A stretch of DNA of 64,000 nucleotides from NCBI RefSeq assembly GCF_002197845.1, contig NZ_NIDE01000003.1:124001-188000 (forward strand), given 5' to 3'. Both the position numbers and the translations under genes were made by a program. Positions 8,323 to 50,169 of the stretch are shown in pieces; position 1 is the first letter of the stretch, and each line of letters starts with the position of its first letter. A model generated the notes under the pieces. The model saw only the letters and a list, made by a program, of their open reading frames with translations. It searched no databases and had not been told where the DNA came from. This stretch comes from Fimbriiglobus ruber (GTDB lineage: Bacteria; Planctomycetota; Planctomycetia; Gemmatales; Gemmataceae).

Positions 8323-9770
8323 ATGTATCAGGTGTTGTTCCACATTCCCTTCACTGCCGGGTTGGTGCCCCCGGACGGGCTGCCGGTGTACGGCTTCGGC
8401 GCGATGATGTTCCTCACGTTCGTCCTCACGGCGATGGTTTGGGGGCCACTCCGCGGCGCCAGGATCGGGGTGCCGAAGGACAAAATGCAAGACTTCGCGA
8501 TCCTGCTTTTCCTGTGCGGGTTCGCCGGCGCCCGCGTACTGTATATGGTCCAGTACTCCGACCAATTCCCGGACAAAAGTATCGTCGGCTTGATCAAAGC
8601 GTTTTTCCAGATCTGGAATGGCGGGATCGTACTTTACGGATCGGTGTTCGGAGGACTGATCGCGTTTTTGTATTTTTATCGGCTCGTTTTGCGGAAGCTG
8701 CACGTTTCGGCTTGGAAATTTGCAGACGTTGTAGCTCCCTTAATCGCGCTCGGGATAGCAGTCGGCAGGATCGGGTGTTACCTCAATGGGTGTTGCTGGG
8801 GCCAACCGGTGTGCGCCGAGTGCCAGCCGGTCCCGCTCTCGCCGGCGCTCGGGGAGTTCCCGCTGCTCCCGGCCCACGCCCAGAAGCAAGTCTGTGTCCT
8901 CCCGTCCGCGACCGACCGGATGCCGCAAATCCACGGCTTACAGACGCCGACCGGCTTCTCGATTACGCCGGCCAACAACCTCTTCGGGGTCGGCGACCCG
9001 CGGTCCGTCGTCGACGCGATCGAGCCCGGCTCGGACGCGGGCAAAGCCGGGTTGAAGCCCGGCGACCGCGTGATCCGCGTGAACGGCCGCGTCAACCAGA
9101 TCGTGATCGAACTGTCCGGCGATCCGACCGGAGTCGAACAAACCACCACGAAACTGGTCGCCGAAGGGGGAACCATCCCCGACCGCCCCGCGGACGCCGA
9201 GGACGTCCGTTCGCTTTCGTGGGTCGGGTTCAACGATCCCGCGACGTATCAGAATGCGGTCGCGAAAATCGGGCGCGTTCCGTCCGGTGTCAACCCGATC
9301 GTTCACGACACACTCTGGGAGACGGTCCGCGCGTGGCCGCGCGGGCGGGCCGAATTGGACCTTGTCGTCAACCGCGACGGGAAAGAGGTCGCGATCGGCT
9401 TCGTCCCCACACGGTATCCTTCTTCCCGACGCAGTTGTACGAGACCGTGAGCATGGTGTTGCTGATCTTTTTACTCGTCTCGTTCCAGCCGTTCCGCCGG
9501 CACAACGGGCAACTCATTGTCATCCTGATGCTCGGGTATGCCGTTCACCGATTTCTGAACGAGGCGATCCGCATCGAGCCGACCTACGCGCTCAACTTGA
9601 CGCTCTCGCAGTGGATCAGCATCGGGATCTTTACCGCCGGCATCGGGCTCGAACTGTTCCTGCGGGCAACGCAGCCAAAATTGCCCACGGGCGAATTGCC
9701 GCTGTCCTACGGGGCGACTCCGGCCCCCGCCGCGTCACCGACTCGCGTTCTGGCCGCCGGAAAAGCCTGA
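8323..9770 (+). CDS. lgt: Prolipoprotein diacylglyceryl transferase with PDZ insert; frameshifted
   Basis: Lgt transfers diacylglycerol from phosphatidylglycerol to the lipobox cysteine of prolipoproteins in the inner membrane. The start chosen is ATG 8323, preceded by GAGGGG; an upstream GTG at 8296 is in frame but lacks a ribosome site. The first frame (to TGA at 9450) carries several membrane helices and the Lgt signature as 'GRIGCYLNGCCWG' (residues 148-160); the usual 'FHGG' histidine region reads 'LYGSVFGG'. Residues ~165-360 are an insert in the outer loop containing a PDZ core ('IEPGSDAGKAGLKPGDRVI'). The last Lgt helices, beginning 'FFPTQLYETVS', are in another frame ending at TGA 9770. 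One indel at about 9405-9425 separates the frames. Either a sequencing error or a real lesion; lgt is normally needed, so an error is quite possible. Confidence 0.85.
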
Positions 9771-9864: not shown

Positions 9865-10736
9865 TTACCGCTGTGCCGTGATGCCGTATTGAACCGTCGT
9901 GTCGCCCGCCGGCTTCGGCACGGGCTTGCCGCCGGACGCGACCGGGGCCCCGGTCGCCCGGACGACGAGCGCCCGCTGGCGGACCCGGCTGCCGTCGCTC
10001 GTAAAGAACAAAGCCTGGCCGAGCGTACCGACCGGATCTTCTGTTGCGCCGATGACGAGGTAGTCGTCCGGCGAAACCGTCACGTCCCATTGCAGGGTGG
10101 GGTACGTTTCGAGCGGTTTGTGGTCCTGGCGGACGAAACTAGTGTTGTCCGTCGACGGCTGCAGGTAGGCCTGCTTATCCCCGTGCTGGACTTGCGGCTG
10201 GCAGGTCAGTCGAATCCGGCCGCCCGGGAGTGGGACCGCGGCGATCGAGAGCCCGAGTTCGGCCGCCGCGAGGTCGAGGCGGACCGGATCGCCCGCGATC
10301 TCCGTGCGGACCTGGTAGGAACACGTTTCCAACGGCCCGTTGACCGGAATGACCCGGGGTTTGCCGCTCTGCGCGGTGTACAGCATCATGTTGATCGTGG
10401 CGTGGTCGGACCGGATGAGCTGCTCGAATTCGGACGGGATGATGCCCGAGAACAAGCCGACCCGCAGACCGTTCTGGGCCAGTCGCGTCGTGAGTTCGTG
10501 CGGCAACGGTCGGCCGACGGCTTCCCACAAACCTTTATTCAAATACGGGTCACCGGCCGGTCGATCGATCAGCGCGGTTTTCAGGTGCATCCCGCCGTCC
10601 GGGCCGCCCGTGATGGCCCGGAACTGGTCCCACCACCCGCCCGCGGACCGGCTCTCGGACTTGGAGGAAATACACCCCCGAGCGCGGCGCAAACGACCAC
10701 CAACAGCAACCCGCCTGCCTTCCCTGGCCGGCGCAT
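9865..10736 (-). CDS. Exported/lipoprotein of unknown function, probable frameshift after signal peptide
   Basis: The main frame encodes about 270 residues that begin near 'WWDQFRAITGG' and include 'IDRPAGDPYLNKGLWE', 'LAQNGLRVGLFSGIIP' and a C-terminal beta-rich half. I recognise a planctomycete-restricted family with no assigned function. In the main frame the N-terminus is arginine-rich and unconvincing. In the neighbouring frame an ATG at 10736, preceded by AAGGGTGG, opens a classical signal segment (MRRPGKAGG then LLLVVVCAALGG, with a cysteine in lipobox-like context). The two frames can be joined by one indel near 10675-10690. I therefore give the gene as starting at 10736 with a frameshift; a shorter protein starting at the in-frame ATG near 10590 is the alternative. 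The frame ends at 9865, facing lgt across the bidirectional terminator. Confidence 0.6.
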
Positions 10737-10749
10737 GGCGTTCCACCCT

Positions 10750-11390
10750 TCACGAAGTGTACTGATCGGACGGGCGGGAAATACCGGCGCGGAAGTGCGA
10801 TGTCAAGTGAGCGTATGCGCCGAACCTGAGGGCGGCGTGCCACACGTCCCGTTTCGCGGAGCGGGGGACGATCGCGACGAACCTTCCGTCCGGACTCGTT
10901 TCGATTACGGACCACTTTGGTAGCGCTACCCGGCGGAGTTCCTTGCCGGTCACGGCGTCAATCGCAAGAACCGTGTGGTCGGCGCGGGCGAGGATCAACT
11001 CGCGCCCGCCCGCGGCAAACCAGACCTGCTTGCATTCGACGGGGAACGGGCCGAGTGTGCGGGCGGGTTTCAAGTCGCGCAACCGCCCACCGGTTTTGCA
11101 TGGATAGACTTGAACCACTCGACGGGTGGGGTCCGCGGGCTGTCTTGCGACCGCGACCCACGCCCCGTCCGGAGACAACGCGGCGCACGAGATGGCTCAC
11201 TCGGGTGGCTTCGGCTGAGGTACGACAAGAGGTTGAGGCTCAAACGTGGGACGAACGTCTTTCGGGTCGGTGAAATCCCAGAGGTATTTATCCGCCGGAT
11301 CTCGCCATCGGGCCGCCAGAAAATCGCGTTCGTCGGGAAGGCGCCCTCGTTATCCGGGAACAAGTAGAGCCCCCGGCCCGGACCCATTTT
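10750..11390 (-). pseudogene. WD40/beta-propeller gene remnant
   Basis: The last 142 codons (from 11178 down to 10750) read as propeller blades: 'LSPDGAWVAVARQ', 'VWFAAGGRELILARADH', 'IDAVTGKELRRV'. Upstream, the same frame continues as '...DFLAARWRDPADKYLWDF' and '...PLVVPQPKPPE' and is stopped by TGA at 11199-11197, where a tryptophan codon TGG would fit the sequence ('PPE-stop-AISCAALSPDG'). A further in-frame TAA occurs near 11360. No start codon with a ribosome site precedes the blades. This looks like the 3' half of a decayed WD40 gene, similar in nature to the remnant next to the IS element but not obviously the same gene. Confidence 0.65.
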
Positions 11391-11689
11391 TGGTGCCGGA
11401 TGAGCCGCCCGGTTACAGCGTCCAGGAGTGTGAGATGTTCGCCGCCGAACGCGATCGCAGGCCGTCTGGATGTCGGTCGCGCGACAGACCTGCGAACGGC
11501 AGGTCGGGAGCCTGAGCAGCCTGCGAGAACACTACGGAACTGCCATTCGATCGTGGGCTGGCGTCGGGTGCGCTATTGCGTGCCCGACGCCAGCCCACGA
11601 CTTCATTTTCGGTGAGAGTGCCCAGCTCTACCCGTTAGGGGGCATAGCCGGTAACAACTTGATCAAACAGATATTCGCCACCGAGCTTA
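11391..11689. other. Intergenic region with one perfect hairpin
   Basis: About 300 bp without a credible gene, between the decayed WD40 gene and the DUF1501 stop. Apart from the inverted repeat at 11552-11599 I see nothing recognisable. Confidence 0.5.
11552..11599. repeat. 17-bp perfect inverted repeat, terminator-like
   Basis: Arms 11552-11568 and 11583-11599 are exact reverse complements around a 14-nt loop. It lies about 90 bp beyond the stop of the DUF1501 gene (-). There is no T-tract on either side, so it may be a transcript-end stabiliser or a member of an intergenic repeat family rather than an intrinsic terminator. Confidence 0.6.
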
Positions 11690-13036
11690 TCAGGCGACTT
11701 CTTTCAGCGGCACCGAATTGTCTTCGACCAGGTGCTGCGGCCGCCCTTCGAGATCGTTGACCGTCGCCCGGTTCGCGTCGATGCCGAGGTTGCGGTAGAG
11801 GGTCGCGTAGATTTCCCCGAACGTGACCGGCCGGGCGACCGCCTCGCCGGCGATCCGGTCGGTCGCCCCGATCACCTGGCCGGTCCGCATCCCGCCCCCG
11901 GCCATGACCGCGCAATTCACCTGCGGCCAGTGGTCGCGGCCGACCTGGGCGCTGATCCGCGGCGTGCGGCCGAACTCGCCAGCTACGACGACGGTGCAGT
12001 CCTGGTCGAGCCCGCGCTCGTGCAGGTCTTCGATCAGGGCGCTGAGGCAGCGATCGAACACCGGGAAGTCTTCGGCTTCCCGCTTGAAAATCGAATTGTT
12101 CGCCCCGCCGTGCCAGTCCCATTTGCTGTAGTTCAACGTCACTACCCGCGCCCCGGCCTCAACGAGTCGGCGGGCCATCAGCATGCTCTGGGGTACACGC
12201 GGGGCGCCGTTGTCGTCCATGAAGATGGTCGGGTCGCCGGTGCCGTACCGCCCGACCGTCCGCGGGTCTTCTTTGGACAGGTCGAGGGCGTCTGCCAGTC
12301 GGGACGAGGTGAGGAGGCCGAACGCCTGCTCGTTGAACGCATCCATCCCGCGCATCGCGCCACTCGCGTCCGCGTCGCGGCGGGTGTCGTCGAAGCTCTT
12401 GAGGAGTGTCTTCCGGTCGGCCAGGCGGTTGACCGTGATCCCGCGGAGAGACATGTCGTTGCGGGCCGGACCGGTCGGGCGGAAGGGAGAAAGAGCGGTG
12501 CCGAGGAAGCCGGGGCCGGGCTCGTTGTACGGGCCGTGCGTGCAGGGGTAACAGAGGCTGACGAACGGCGGGATGGCCGGGTCGGTCGGCGGTTCGAGCT
12601 TGGCCACGACCGAGCCGAGCTGCGGCCACCCGCCGCCCGGCGCTTTCTTCCCGGGGTGGCGGCCGTTGAACACCTGAATAGCGTCGTGGCCGTCCTGGTT
12701 GCCGACGAGTGAGCGGATGATAACCAGCTTGTCCATGTTGCGGGCGAGCCGCGGGAACGCCTCGCAGATCTGGACGCCGGGCACGTTCGTCGCGGCCGGC
12801 CGCCACGGGCCGGCGATCTCGCGAGGGGCGTTCGGCTTCAGGTCGAACATGTCCTGGTGCGGCGGCCCGCCGACCAGATAAATCATGATCACCGACTTGT
12901 GCGACGTCCGAATCCCCGCCGACGACTCAGCCCGTAGGAGCTGGGGCAACGTCAGCCCGCCGAGCCCGAGCGCGCCGATTTGCAGGAAGCCGCGACGGGT
13001 CGGGCGGGTGGTGATCACATGGTCCCGGGCTGACAT
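11690..13036 (-). CDS. DUF1501 domain-containing protein (Tat-exported, sulfatase-like)
   Basis: A 448-residue member of DUF1501, a family with an alkaline-phosphatase/sulfatase-like fold that is expanded in planctomycetes. The N-terminus carries a Tat signal ('TRRGFLQIGALGLGG'), so it is exported folded. Family landmarks are 'SVIMIYLVGGPPHQDMFDLK' near residue 50, 'GRTPRI', 'GRDHWPQVNCAVMAGGG' and the C-terminal 'GEIYATLYRNLGID'. Genome surveys usually find it directly after a DUF1549/DUF1553 cytochrome-type gene; here no such gene is adjacent, and the neighbours are a WD40 remnant and the metallopeptidase-cyclophilin gene. Its substrate is not known. Start ATG 13036 is the first start before the Tat motif. 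Confidence 0.93.
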   Translation of the reverse strand: MSARDHVITTRPTRRGFLQIGALGLGGLTLPQLLRAESSAGIRTSHKSVIMIYLVGGPPHQDMFDLKPNAPREIAGPWRPAATNVPGVQICEAFPRLARNMDKLVIIRSLVGNQDGHDAIQVFNGRHPGKKAPGGGWPQLGSVVAKLEPPTDPAIPPFVSLCYPCTHGPYNEPGPGFLGTALSPFRPTGPARNDMSLRGITVNRLADRKTLLKSFDDTRRDADASGAMRGMDAFNEQAFGLLTSSRLADALDLSKEDPRTVGRYGTGDPTIFMDDNGAPRVPQSMLMARRLVEAGARVVTLNYSKWDWHGGANNSIFKREAEDFPVFDRCLSALIEDLHERGLDQDCTVVVAGEFGRTPRISAQVGRDHWPQVNCAVMAGGGMRTGQVIGATDRIAGEAVARPVTFGEIYATLYRNLGIDANRATVNDLEGRPQHLVEDNSVPLKEVA

Positions 13037-49461: not shown

Positions 49462-50169
49462 ATGAGCGAACACCACGCAACGATACATATCGACGGCGGA
49501 TCGCGGGGAAATCCCGGCCCCGCGTCTTACGCCGTCGTCCTTCGGAGACCGGGTTTGCCGGTCATTGAAGAAGCCGAAACACTCGGCATCGCGACCAACA
49601 ACGTGGCCGAATACACGGCACTGGTCCGCGCCCTGGAACGGGCGAATGCGCTGGGGTTACGCTCGCTCGCCATATTTAGTGATAGCGAACTCATGGTCCG
49701 GCAGATGAAGGGCGAATACCGGGTCAAGAGTGCCGACCTGCAAGACCTGTATCGGGAAGCCGTCGACCTGCGGAAAGCCTTCGACAAGGTCACACTGACG
49801 CACGTCCGCCGGGAATTTAACTCCGACGCCGACCGACTCTGCAACGAAGCCCTGGACGGCCGCCCCCGTCCCCGGCCGACGCCGGAGGAAGTTCCGGAAG
49901 CAGCGCCAGCCGAGGAGCCGGCCGTTGTTGGCCCTCCTATGGATTCGCCCCCTGCCGCAAAAAAAGGAGCGGAAGAGGTCGGCGACGACCATGCCTCAAG
50001 TGACACGATCCGCTCCGAGGCGTTCGGCATCCTCACACGGGCCGCGGCCGATTGGTCGGTCCACGGCCCGCACAAGATTGCGGTCGGCGACGTCTGGGAC
50101 GAATTGTGGGCGTTACTAAAAAAGCACGACGCTTTGAAAAAGAAGCGGACTAAAAAAGAACCCGAGTAA
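49462..50169 (+). CDS. RNase HI with C-terminal extension
   Basis: A 235-residue protein whose first ~130 residues are RNase H: 'IHIDGGSRGNPGPASYAVV' with the first catalytic Asp, 'NNVAEYTAL' with Glu, 'FSDSELMVRQMKGEY' with the second Asp and 'EFNSDADRLCNEALD' with the last one. RNase HI cuts the RNA strand of RNA-DNA hybrids. The remaining ~100 residues form a Pro/Glu-rich linker and a lysine-rich helical tail ('LWALLKKHDALKKKRTKKEP') not found in E. coli RNase HI. The next gene starts 32 bp downstream and may be co-transcribed. Confidence 0.92.
   Translation: MSEHHATIHIDGGSRGNPGPASYAVVLRRPGLPVIEEAETLGIATNNVAEYTALVRALERANALGLRSLAIFSDSELMVRQMKGEYRVKSADLQDLYREAVDLRKAFDKVTLTHVRREFNSDADRLCNEALDGRPRPRPTPEEVPEAAPAEEPAVVGPPMDSPPAAKKGAEEVGDDHASSDTIRSEAFGILTRAAADWSVHGPHKIAVGDVWDELWALLKKHDALKKKRTKKEPE

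Follow-up and report, generated by a model that had tools for sequence, protein, structure and literature searches.

A PDZ domain in the periplasmic head of the divergent prolipoprotein diacylglyceryl transferase of Fimbriiglobus ruber and related planctomycetes

E. coli Lgt (5azb/5azc, PF01790) carries a periplasmic head, E151-P197, between the transmembrane segments TM4 and TM5, and deletion of lgt is lethal to most Gram-negatives, as stated in the accessible text of PMC4728403. According to the accessible parts of PMC13251419, the size of this head varies widely, head swaps reveal that it matters for function, and the authors hypothesize a contact with the linker of the prolipoprotein, while treating what the head does with its protein substrate as an open question. 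The same source reports Lgt proteins with the exchanges H103Y, N146C and E151C/D, among them the N146C enzyme of Leptospira interrogans, which in E. coli restored morphology, but viability only poorly. As far as its main text is accessible, the words "PDZ" and "Planctomycetes" are absent from that paper.

Lgt and PDZ have been brought together in a single chain by engineering. In the accessible text of PMC9893748, E. coli Lgt was fused at its ends to PDZ, SH3 or GBD modules; these fusions are an artificial scaffold, in which the PDZ sits at the N-terminal end instead of being a natural part of the head. The accessible open-access literature yielded no description of a naturally occurring PDZ-Lgt, which may have been described elsewhere or be present in domain databases without comment. 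The terms "lipoprotein", "prolipoprotein", "diacylglyceryl" and "lgt" are absent from the main text, as accessible, of PMC6411480, in which 7,852 prokaryotic PDZ proteins were surveyed in 2019, and in the accessible text of PMC12419801 Lgt and PDZ both occur, in unrelated places only.

The window analyzed here, a stretch of 64,000 nucleotides, belongs to the Fimbriiglobus ruber assembly (12.36 Mb, 20 contigs, rated 97% complete). It encodes one prolipoprotein diacylglyceryl transferase (Lgt) as two halves on the plus strand, at 8323-9450 and 9417-9770. The first open frame (375 aa) begins with ATG at 8323, stays open to 9450, and contains TM1-4, the Lgt signature and the head with the PDZ insert; its final ~13 residues are out of frame. 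The second frame contributes PTQLYE, TM5-7 and the equivalents of R239 and E243 (within HRFLNEAIR). The Pfam LGT profile matches the first frame at residues 20-168 (1.3e-30, 107 bits) and the second over profile positions 160-237 (9e-13, 48.5 bits), both above the cut-off of 24.9. A first-pass annotation, made from the sequence of the window, had described an Lgt whose last helices lie in another frame, and both points hold. The TM1-4 part of the core spans 8380-8802 (plus strand, residues 20-160, by Pfam and the AlphaFold2 model), to which chain residues 22-169 of E. coli Lgt correspond in the alignment with the profile of relatives, and the signature GRIGCYLNGCCWG occupies 8764-8802 (plus strand, residues 148-160, by alignment to 5azb and invariant columns). 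In the 12.36-Mb assembly the PF01790 search returned the two lgt halves only; the second intact lgt that the first-pass annotation had considered was not found by it. LspA was matched once in the genome. Next to lgt, at 9865-11700 on the minus strand, we read a WD40-like remnant that is interrupted by stops and spread over several frames; its piece 9868-10746 gave no Pfam match, and the stretch looks like a decaying gene or fragment.

The Lgt core shows both kept and exchanged residues compared with E. coli. R149 corresponds to R143 and G160 to G154, both in invariant columns, and R239 is retained as the R of HRFLNEAIR in the second frame of the window and as R412 in the intact close relative L089. 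In the alignment to 5azb, Y26, H103 and N146 are replaced by F25, Y105 and C152, and E151 by C157. The protein is thus an Lgt of the known divergent type "GC..NGCC", sharing cysteines at signature positions with the N146C and E151C/D enzymes of PMC13251419, in the text accessible. Since three of the six essential E. coli residues (Y26, H103, N146) are replaced and the full E. coli-type set is therefore absent, we regard diacylglyceryl transfer by this protein as putative.

Unlike E. coli Lgt, the protein has a head that holds a whole PDZ domain. The enlarged periplasmic head, between TM4 and TM5, extends over 8803-9408 (plus strand, ~residues 161-362), as delimited by models and by span comparison with insert-free relatives. 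Signature and PTQ are separated by ~203 residues in the alignment of the window's Lgt, as against 41-43 in 27 of 28 measured copies of family f3 and 63 in the remaining one. Pfam PF00595 (PDZ) matches residues 207-256 of the first frame (2.9e-5, 24.8 bits, cut-off 23.2); PF17820 reaches 23.5 bits and stays below its cut-off of 27. The insert of about 200 residues with a PDZ core in an outer loop, as first proposed for this gene, is thereby confirmed. The PDZ comes in two parts, both on the plus strand. Its first part (8932-9090, residues 204-256, by Pfam and loop conservation) consists of the HGLQTPTGF loop followed by the core AIEPGSDAGKAGLKPGDRVIRVNG; its second part (9289-9408), a helix and the last two strands, was placed by the model and by the match of L089 to DegP. 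Nested between them, according to the secondary structure of the model, lies a small beta-alpha-beta-alpha-beta domain (9091-9288, plus strand, ~residues 257-322).

Structure prediction, as proposed in the first-pass annotation, put the PDZ in the periplasmic head. AlphaFold2 reached a pLDDT of 89.1 and a pTM of 0.84 for the first frame of the window, and 93.2 and 0.87 for L089; the window's Lgt was modelled for the first frame alone, and the structure comparisons were run on L089. The L089 model superimposes on E. coli Lgt 5azb with Z 21.2 (rmsd 3.1, 253 aligned, 30% identity), and its residues 212-366 on the PDZ of DegP with Z 10.8 (rmsd 3.0, 84 aligned), which VIA-align places above the RseP PDZ (Z 8.8). 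Foldseek lists the A. aeolicus RseP PDZ entry second after 5azb, weakly (E 3.1e-3). A profile alignment of 88 rows, 84 of them from Gemmatales (A4), matches E. coli Lgt before and after a gap at chain residues 170-193, and in between it matches the PDZ domains of A. aeolicus RseP (2.5e-17), its best non-Lgt match in the PDB, and DegP (7.4e-15). The inserted domain is a PDZ of the HtrA/RseP kind. It shares its fold with the PDZ domains of the HtrA proteases DegP, DegS and DegQ (Z up to 10.8), but it sits in a membrane acyltransferase, not in a protease, and is split by the nested domain in the window and in relatives with long inserts. With the PDZ tandem of the RseP/S2P intramembrane protease it has in common the periplasmic position in a membrane enzyme, whereas the enzyme is another one and Lgt has a single PDZ as a rule. 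The equivalent of the nested domain in L089 (261-331) resembles the ferredoxin-like part of BipA (Z 9.2), a score that common folds reach likewise. Judged by insert length, this domain is absent in L019, L020, L023 and L029; it seems dispensable, since the two of these that were scanned keep a PDZ match without it, L020 to PDZ_6 over the cut-off and L029 to PF00595 under the cut-off.

In PDZ domains one loop holds the end of the ligand, and no other piece of the insert is as well conserved as this loop. Its glycine is present in 100% of A4 and of the 60 filled rows of A2, the alignment of relatives outside the Gemmatales set introduced below. In A4 the glycine is preceded by Gln (95%) and Thr (85%) and followed by Phe (95%), near the level of the catalytic positions. 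The PDZ helix lining the groove is poorly conserved in A2.

The first-pass annotation had suggested an alignment with Lgt of other Gemmataceae to see whether the insert is conserved, and conservation was found across the order and beyond it. In the family of the window, 85 of 95 genomes, including the window's own, have an LGT match. Complete main copies are available from 82 of the other 84 (the partial copies of G048 and G091 were left out), and together with seven copies from the order's second family they form a Gemmatales set of 89, or 90 with the window (A1). All 90 members of A1 match Pfam LGT, and all 89 complete copies from other genomes carry an insert at the same place, of 108-299 residues, or 109-300 when measured by pattern. 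The insert is consequently neither a mis-assembly nor private to this genome. PDZ_6 (E up to 0.01) was detected in 83 of 90 A1 sequences, in 41 of the 61 sequences of A2 (30 from family f5, 30 from f4, and L130 of another class), and in none of the 28 insert-free controls from f3, which match no PDZ model and represent 28 of 29 members (L217 was left out for length). Most of the unmatched members, seven in A1 and 20 in A2, the latter including L130, presumably contain a diverged PDZ.

Counted by the span of the Pfam match, enlarged heads predominate in four further families. They occur in 48 of 50 f4 genomes (G552 and G583 have short or partial matches only), and, among genomes with an LGT match, in 53 of 56 of f5 (the other three are fragments), in 33 of 38 of f9, and in 6 of 6 of f6. 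The f9 exceptions are G650, G660 and G664 with insert-free size, G653 with a partial match and G659 with a short copy only. In family f3, LGT is matched in 60 genomes; 59 of them show an insert-free span and the remaining match is a fragment. By locus title, Rhodopirellula, Botrimarina, Mariniblastus and Thermoguttaceae (Pirellulales) have an enlarged head, while Singulisphaera acidiphila, Tautonia sociabilis and one MAG of the Isosphaeraceae lack the insert, with 41 residues between signature and PTQ; four Brocadiaceae have 51. A locus titled Singulisphaera (L252) contains the insert and falls among Gemmatales in the tree. A clean split of the insert by order was considered; against it speak the loci titled Planctomycetaceae, 7 of 12 of which (MAG titles) have an enlarged head; the only one of these seven included in the tree, L287, falls among f5.

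Several loci deviate from the common pattern. The Lgt of L430 (G650, f9, genus g428) has no PDZ, although other members of g428 have an enlarged head, and it represents a natural deletion control. In L117 (2447-4129; G043), three tandem PDZ domains, seen as three Pfam stretches, occupy a 299-residue insert of the Lgt head; the insert of L249 is of equal length. L130 (G152) and L301 (Phycisphaerales) possess large inserts at the same head position without signs of PDZ, L130 having been profile-scanned. The Lgt head may thus be especially prone to insertions. Of the 85 family genomes in which LGT is matched, 12 additionally encode a short Lgt-like protein (frames of 243-309 aa, L122-L129 among them), which was not found in the window's genome. 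Seven of eight fetched proteins of this kind have an R-W-G-C signature, and three included in the tree fall very far from the main copies. The Lgt of L239, titled Bacteroidales, is that of L089, and the locus is probably a mislabelled planctomycete MAG.

The origin of the insert was addressed with a core tree of 95 of 255 core rows, built by a quick method with SH-aLRT support only. Insert-free Isosphaeraceae group beside insert-bearing Gemmatales (SH-aLRT 84), and insert-free f3, together with the Schlesneria loci, beside insert-bearing f4/f5 (SH-aLRT 91). This topology implies a single gain followed by losses, or else that the insert was gained twice at one site. The fewest insert changes on the tree are four, an overcount, as L205 was scored insert-free yet has the insert; L130 and L301 were scored as insert-bearing, and both show no PDZ. 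Similarity between the PDZ domains does not decide the matter, because a PDZ core from one group resembles those of the other group no more than it resembles further PDZ domains of the window's genome. L430, found beside L429 with its enlarged head in the same genus, is most simply explained by loss of the PDZ. Since site and boundaries are the same and L430 likely lost the domain, one old gain with subsequent losses is favoured by these comparisons.

What the PDZ does in Lgt can be approached from the membership of the protein in the family, its fold, the position of the insert, and an order-wide conservation that includes the glycine of the PDZ binding loop. Our preferred reading, tentative and held with somewhat less than even confidence, is a docking and gating PDZ in the divergent Lgt, the only one found in the genome, with no part for the frame break. 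Folded into the periplasmic head over the active-site cavity, the PDZ would form a docking and gating piece at the cavity mouth. It would grip the arriving prolipoprotein by a segment in extended form, and this segment would most likely be the flexible linker that follows the lipobox cysteine, not the C-terminus. Access of prolipoproteins to the catalytic arginines, and their seating, would in this way depend in part on the PDZ. The core fold (Z 21.2 to 5azb), the place of the insert, the published data on head function, the conservation of the loop and the presence of LspA in the genome are consistent with such a role. Other observations point away from it: A2 shows poor conservation of the groove helix, and a third of its members (20/61) gave no PDZ_6 match; the loop glycine may be kept for the fold alone; and the PDZ is absent in L430 and, by span, in three f9 copies. 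As relatives without it exist, the PDZ is not needed in every lineage. A more far-reaching version, in which Lgt of Gemmatales and Pirellulales would act as a gatekeeper whose PDZ checks the prolipoprotein for its linker, its folding state or the completion of its export before permitting transfer, is improbable in our estimation.

Of the other readings, the one that survives best would have the PDZ cover the periplasmic mouth as a size-exclusion gate that recognizes no specific peptide, so that a substrate could enter only if the part following its lipobox is unfolded or slim. For RseP, an intramembrane protease with a pair of PDZ domains, gating of this type has reportedly been proposed, and it is the PDZ of A. 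aeolicus RseP that leads the non-Lgt PDB matches of the profile and follows 5azb in the Foldseek ranking, if weakly. "Size-exclusion filter" is used with RseP and PDZ in the accessible literature, and the weakly conserved groove helix in A2 would fit. A plain filter, however, needs no conserved Q-T-x-x-G-F loop, yet Gemmatales have one, and by VIA-align the DegP PDZ outranks that of RseP. On balance we consider a simple gate unlikely.

A rival of a different kind concerns the gene of the window itself: the frame break, a net one-base slip within ~9405-9417 on the plus strand according to the frames read and a codon-usage scan, might be real and fixed in the strain, leaving a dead or two-piece Lgt. 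The assembly has only 20 contigs, which speaks for a real break, as does the outcome of the scan. It flagged six direct same-strand frame switches in the window: one at 9405/9406 inside lgt, four that on reading are ordinary gene junctions, and a sixth at 50166; among the switches read (all but 50166), lgt was the only case of a break within a gene that is intact apart from it. Against a real break stands that this is the sole lgt found in the genome, in view of the lethality of its deletion in most Gram-negatives (PMC4728403, accessible text). Furthermore, the out-of-frame end still shares 71-77% identity with eight relatives, compared with 70-73% in three comparisons between intact relatives, and halves in different frames are seen elsewhere as isolated cases (G534 of f5, G662 of f9). 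A fixed break is therefore unlikely. The first-pass annotation had treated the split as belonging to the gene, which finds no support: all 82 complete family copies from other genomes are one open frame with signature and PTQ. A programmed ribosomal frameshift was likewise rejected, none of these 82 copies sharing the break. Because the out-of-frame end has retained its identity to relatives, the break is probably an isolated sequencing or assembly slip or a very recent mutation, and it looks like a private blemish of this genome, outside any mechanism.

Returning to the PDZ, a tether would hold the periplasmic C-terminus of a partner, such as a translocon, a chaperone or a protein of the lipoprotein pathway, and thereby keep Lgt in a complex. 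PDZ domains commonly scaffold, and the conserved loop is of the carboxylate type. No partner was found in the gene neighbourhood of the relative loci. Of these 89 loci, 80 of which include more than 1 kb of upstream sequence, 34 have a same-strand gene for a MoxR-type ATPase upstream of lgt, but MoxR-type ATPases are cytoplasmic. The ends of LspA, SecDF and YidC are cytoplasmic as well, which also argues against this role, and we regard it as quite unlikely. Still less credit is due to the PDZ as a passenger, a fold-neutral enlargement of an insert-tolerant head without a ligand. The wide variation in head size (PMC13251419, accessible text), the large non-PDZ inserts at the same place in L130 and L301, and the missing PDZ in L430 would agree with a passenger; that all 89 complete Gemmatales copies have retained the insert, as have 48 of 50 f4 genomes judged by span, and that the loop glycine is invariant, makes it very improbable.

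The first-pass annotation had proposed that the PDZ might pick out prolipoproteins, or present them, through their C-termini, since PDZ domains bind protein C-termini, and the conserved loop would suit this. C-termini were surveyed in 260 loci (1.97 Mb) of PDZ-Lgt genomes, a sample of small numbers with crude gene calling. Here 3 of 21 lipobox candidates end in V/L/I/F/M; after removal by eye of eight doubtful ones (three being Lgt itself, and all three hydrophobic ends included) the count is 0 of 13. Among exported proteins of the PDZ-Lgt genomes G009 and G051, 6 of 96 have such ends, and 104 insert-free loci gave three candidates, one with a V/L/I/F/M end, too few to compare. With no enrichment of classical PDZ-ligand C-termini among the 21 candidates, or the 13 kept, of this small and crudely called sample, selection by C-terminus finds no backing so far and is the least probable of the readings weighed here. 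As a separate observation, exported proteins of G009 and G051 (L349-L388) end in K/R in 47 of 96 cases, against 28 of 192 cytosol-like proteins by the same crude gene calls, and against 12 of 49 exported proteins in G327, the sole control (Fisher p 0.007). Such ends may give protection from periplasmic proteases; conceivably an unusual C-terminal K/R preference could also provide a ligand for the PDZ.

With the PDZ-bearing Lgt, the proteins in which bacterial PDZ domains are found come to include a membrane acyltransferase that is essential in most Gram-negatives. Some planctomycetes have a head with a well-understood peptide-binding module and relatives do without it (L430, f3), which constitutes a natural experiment on the head of Lgt.
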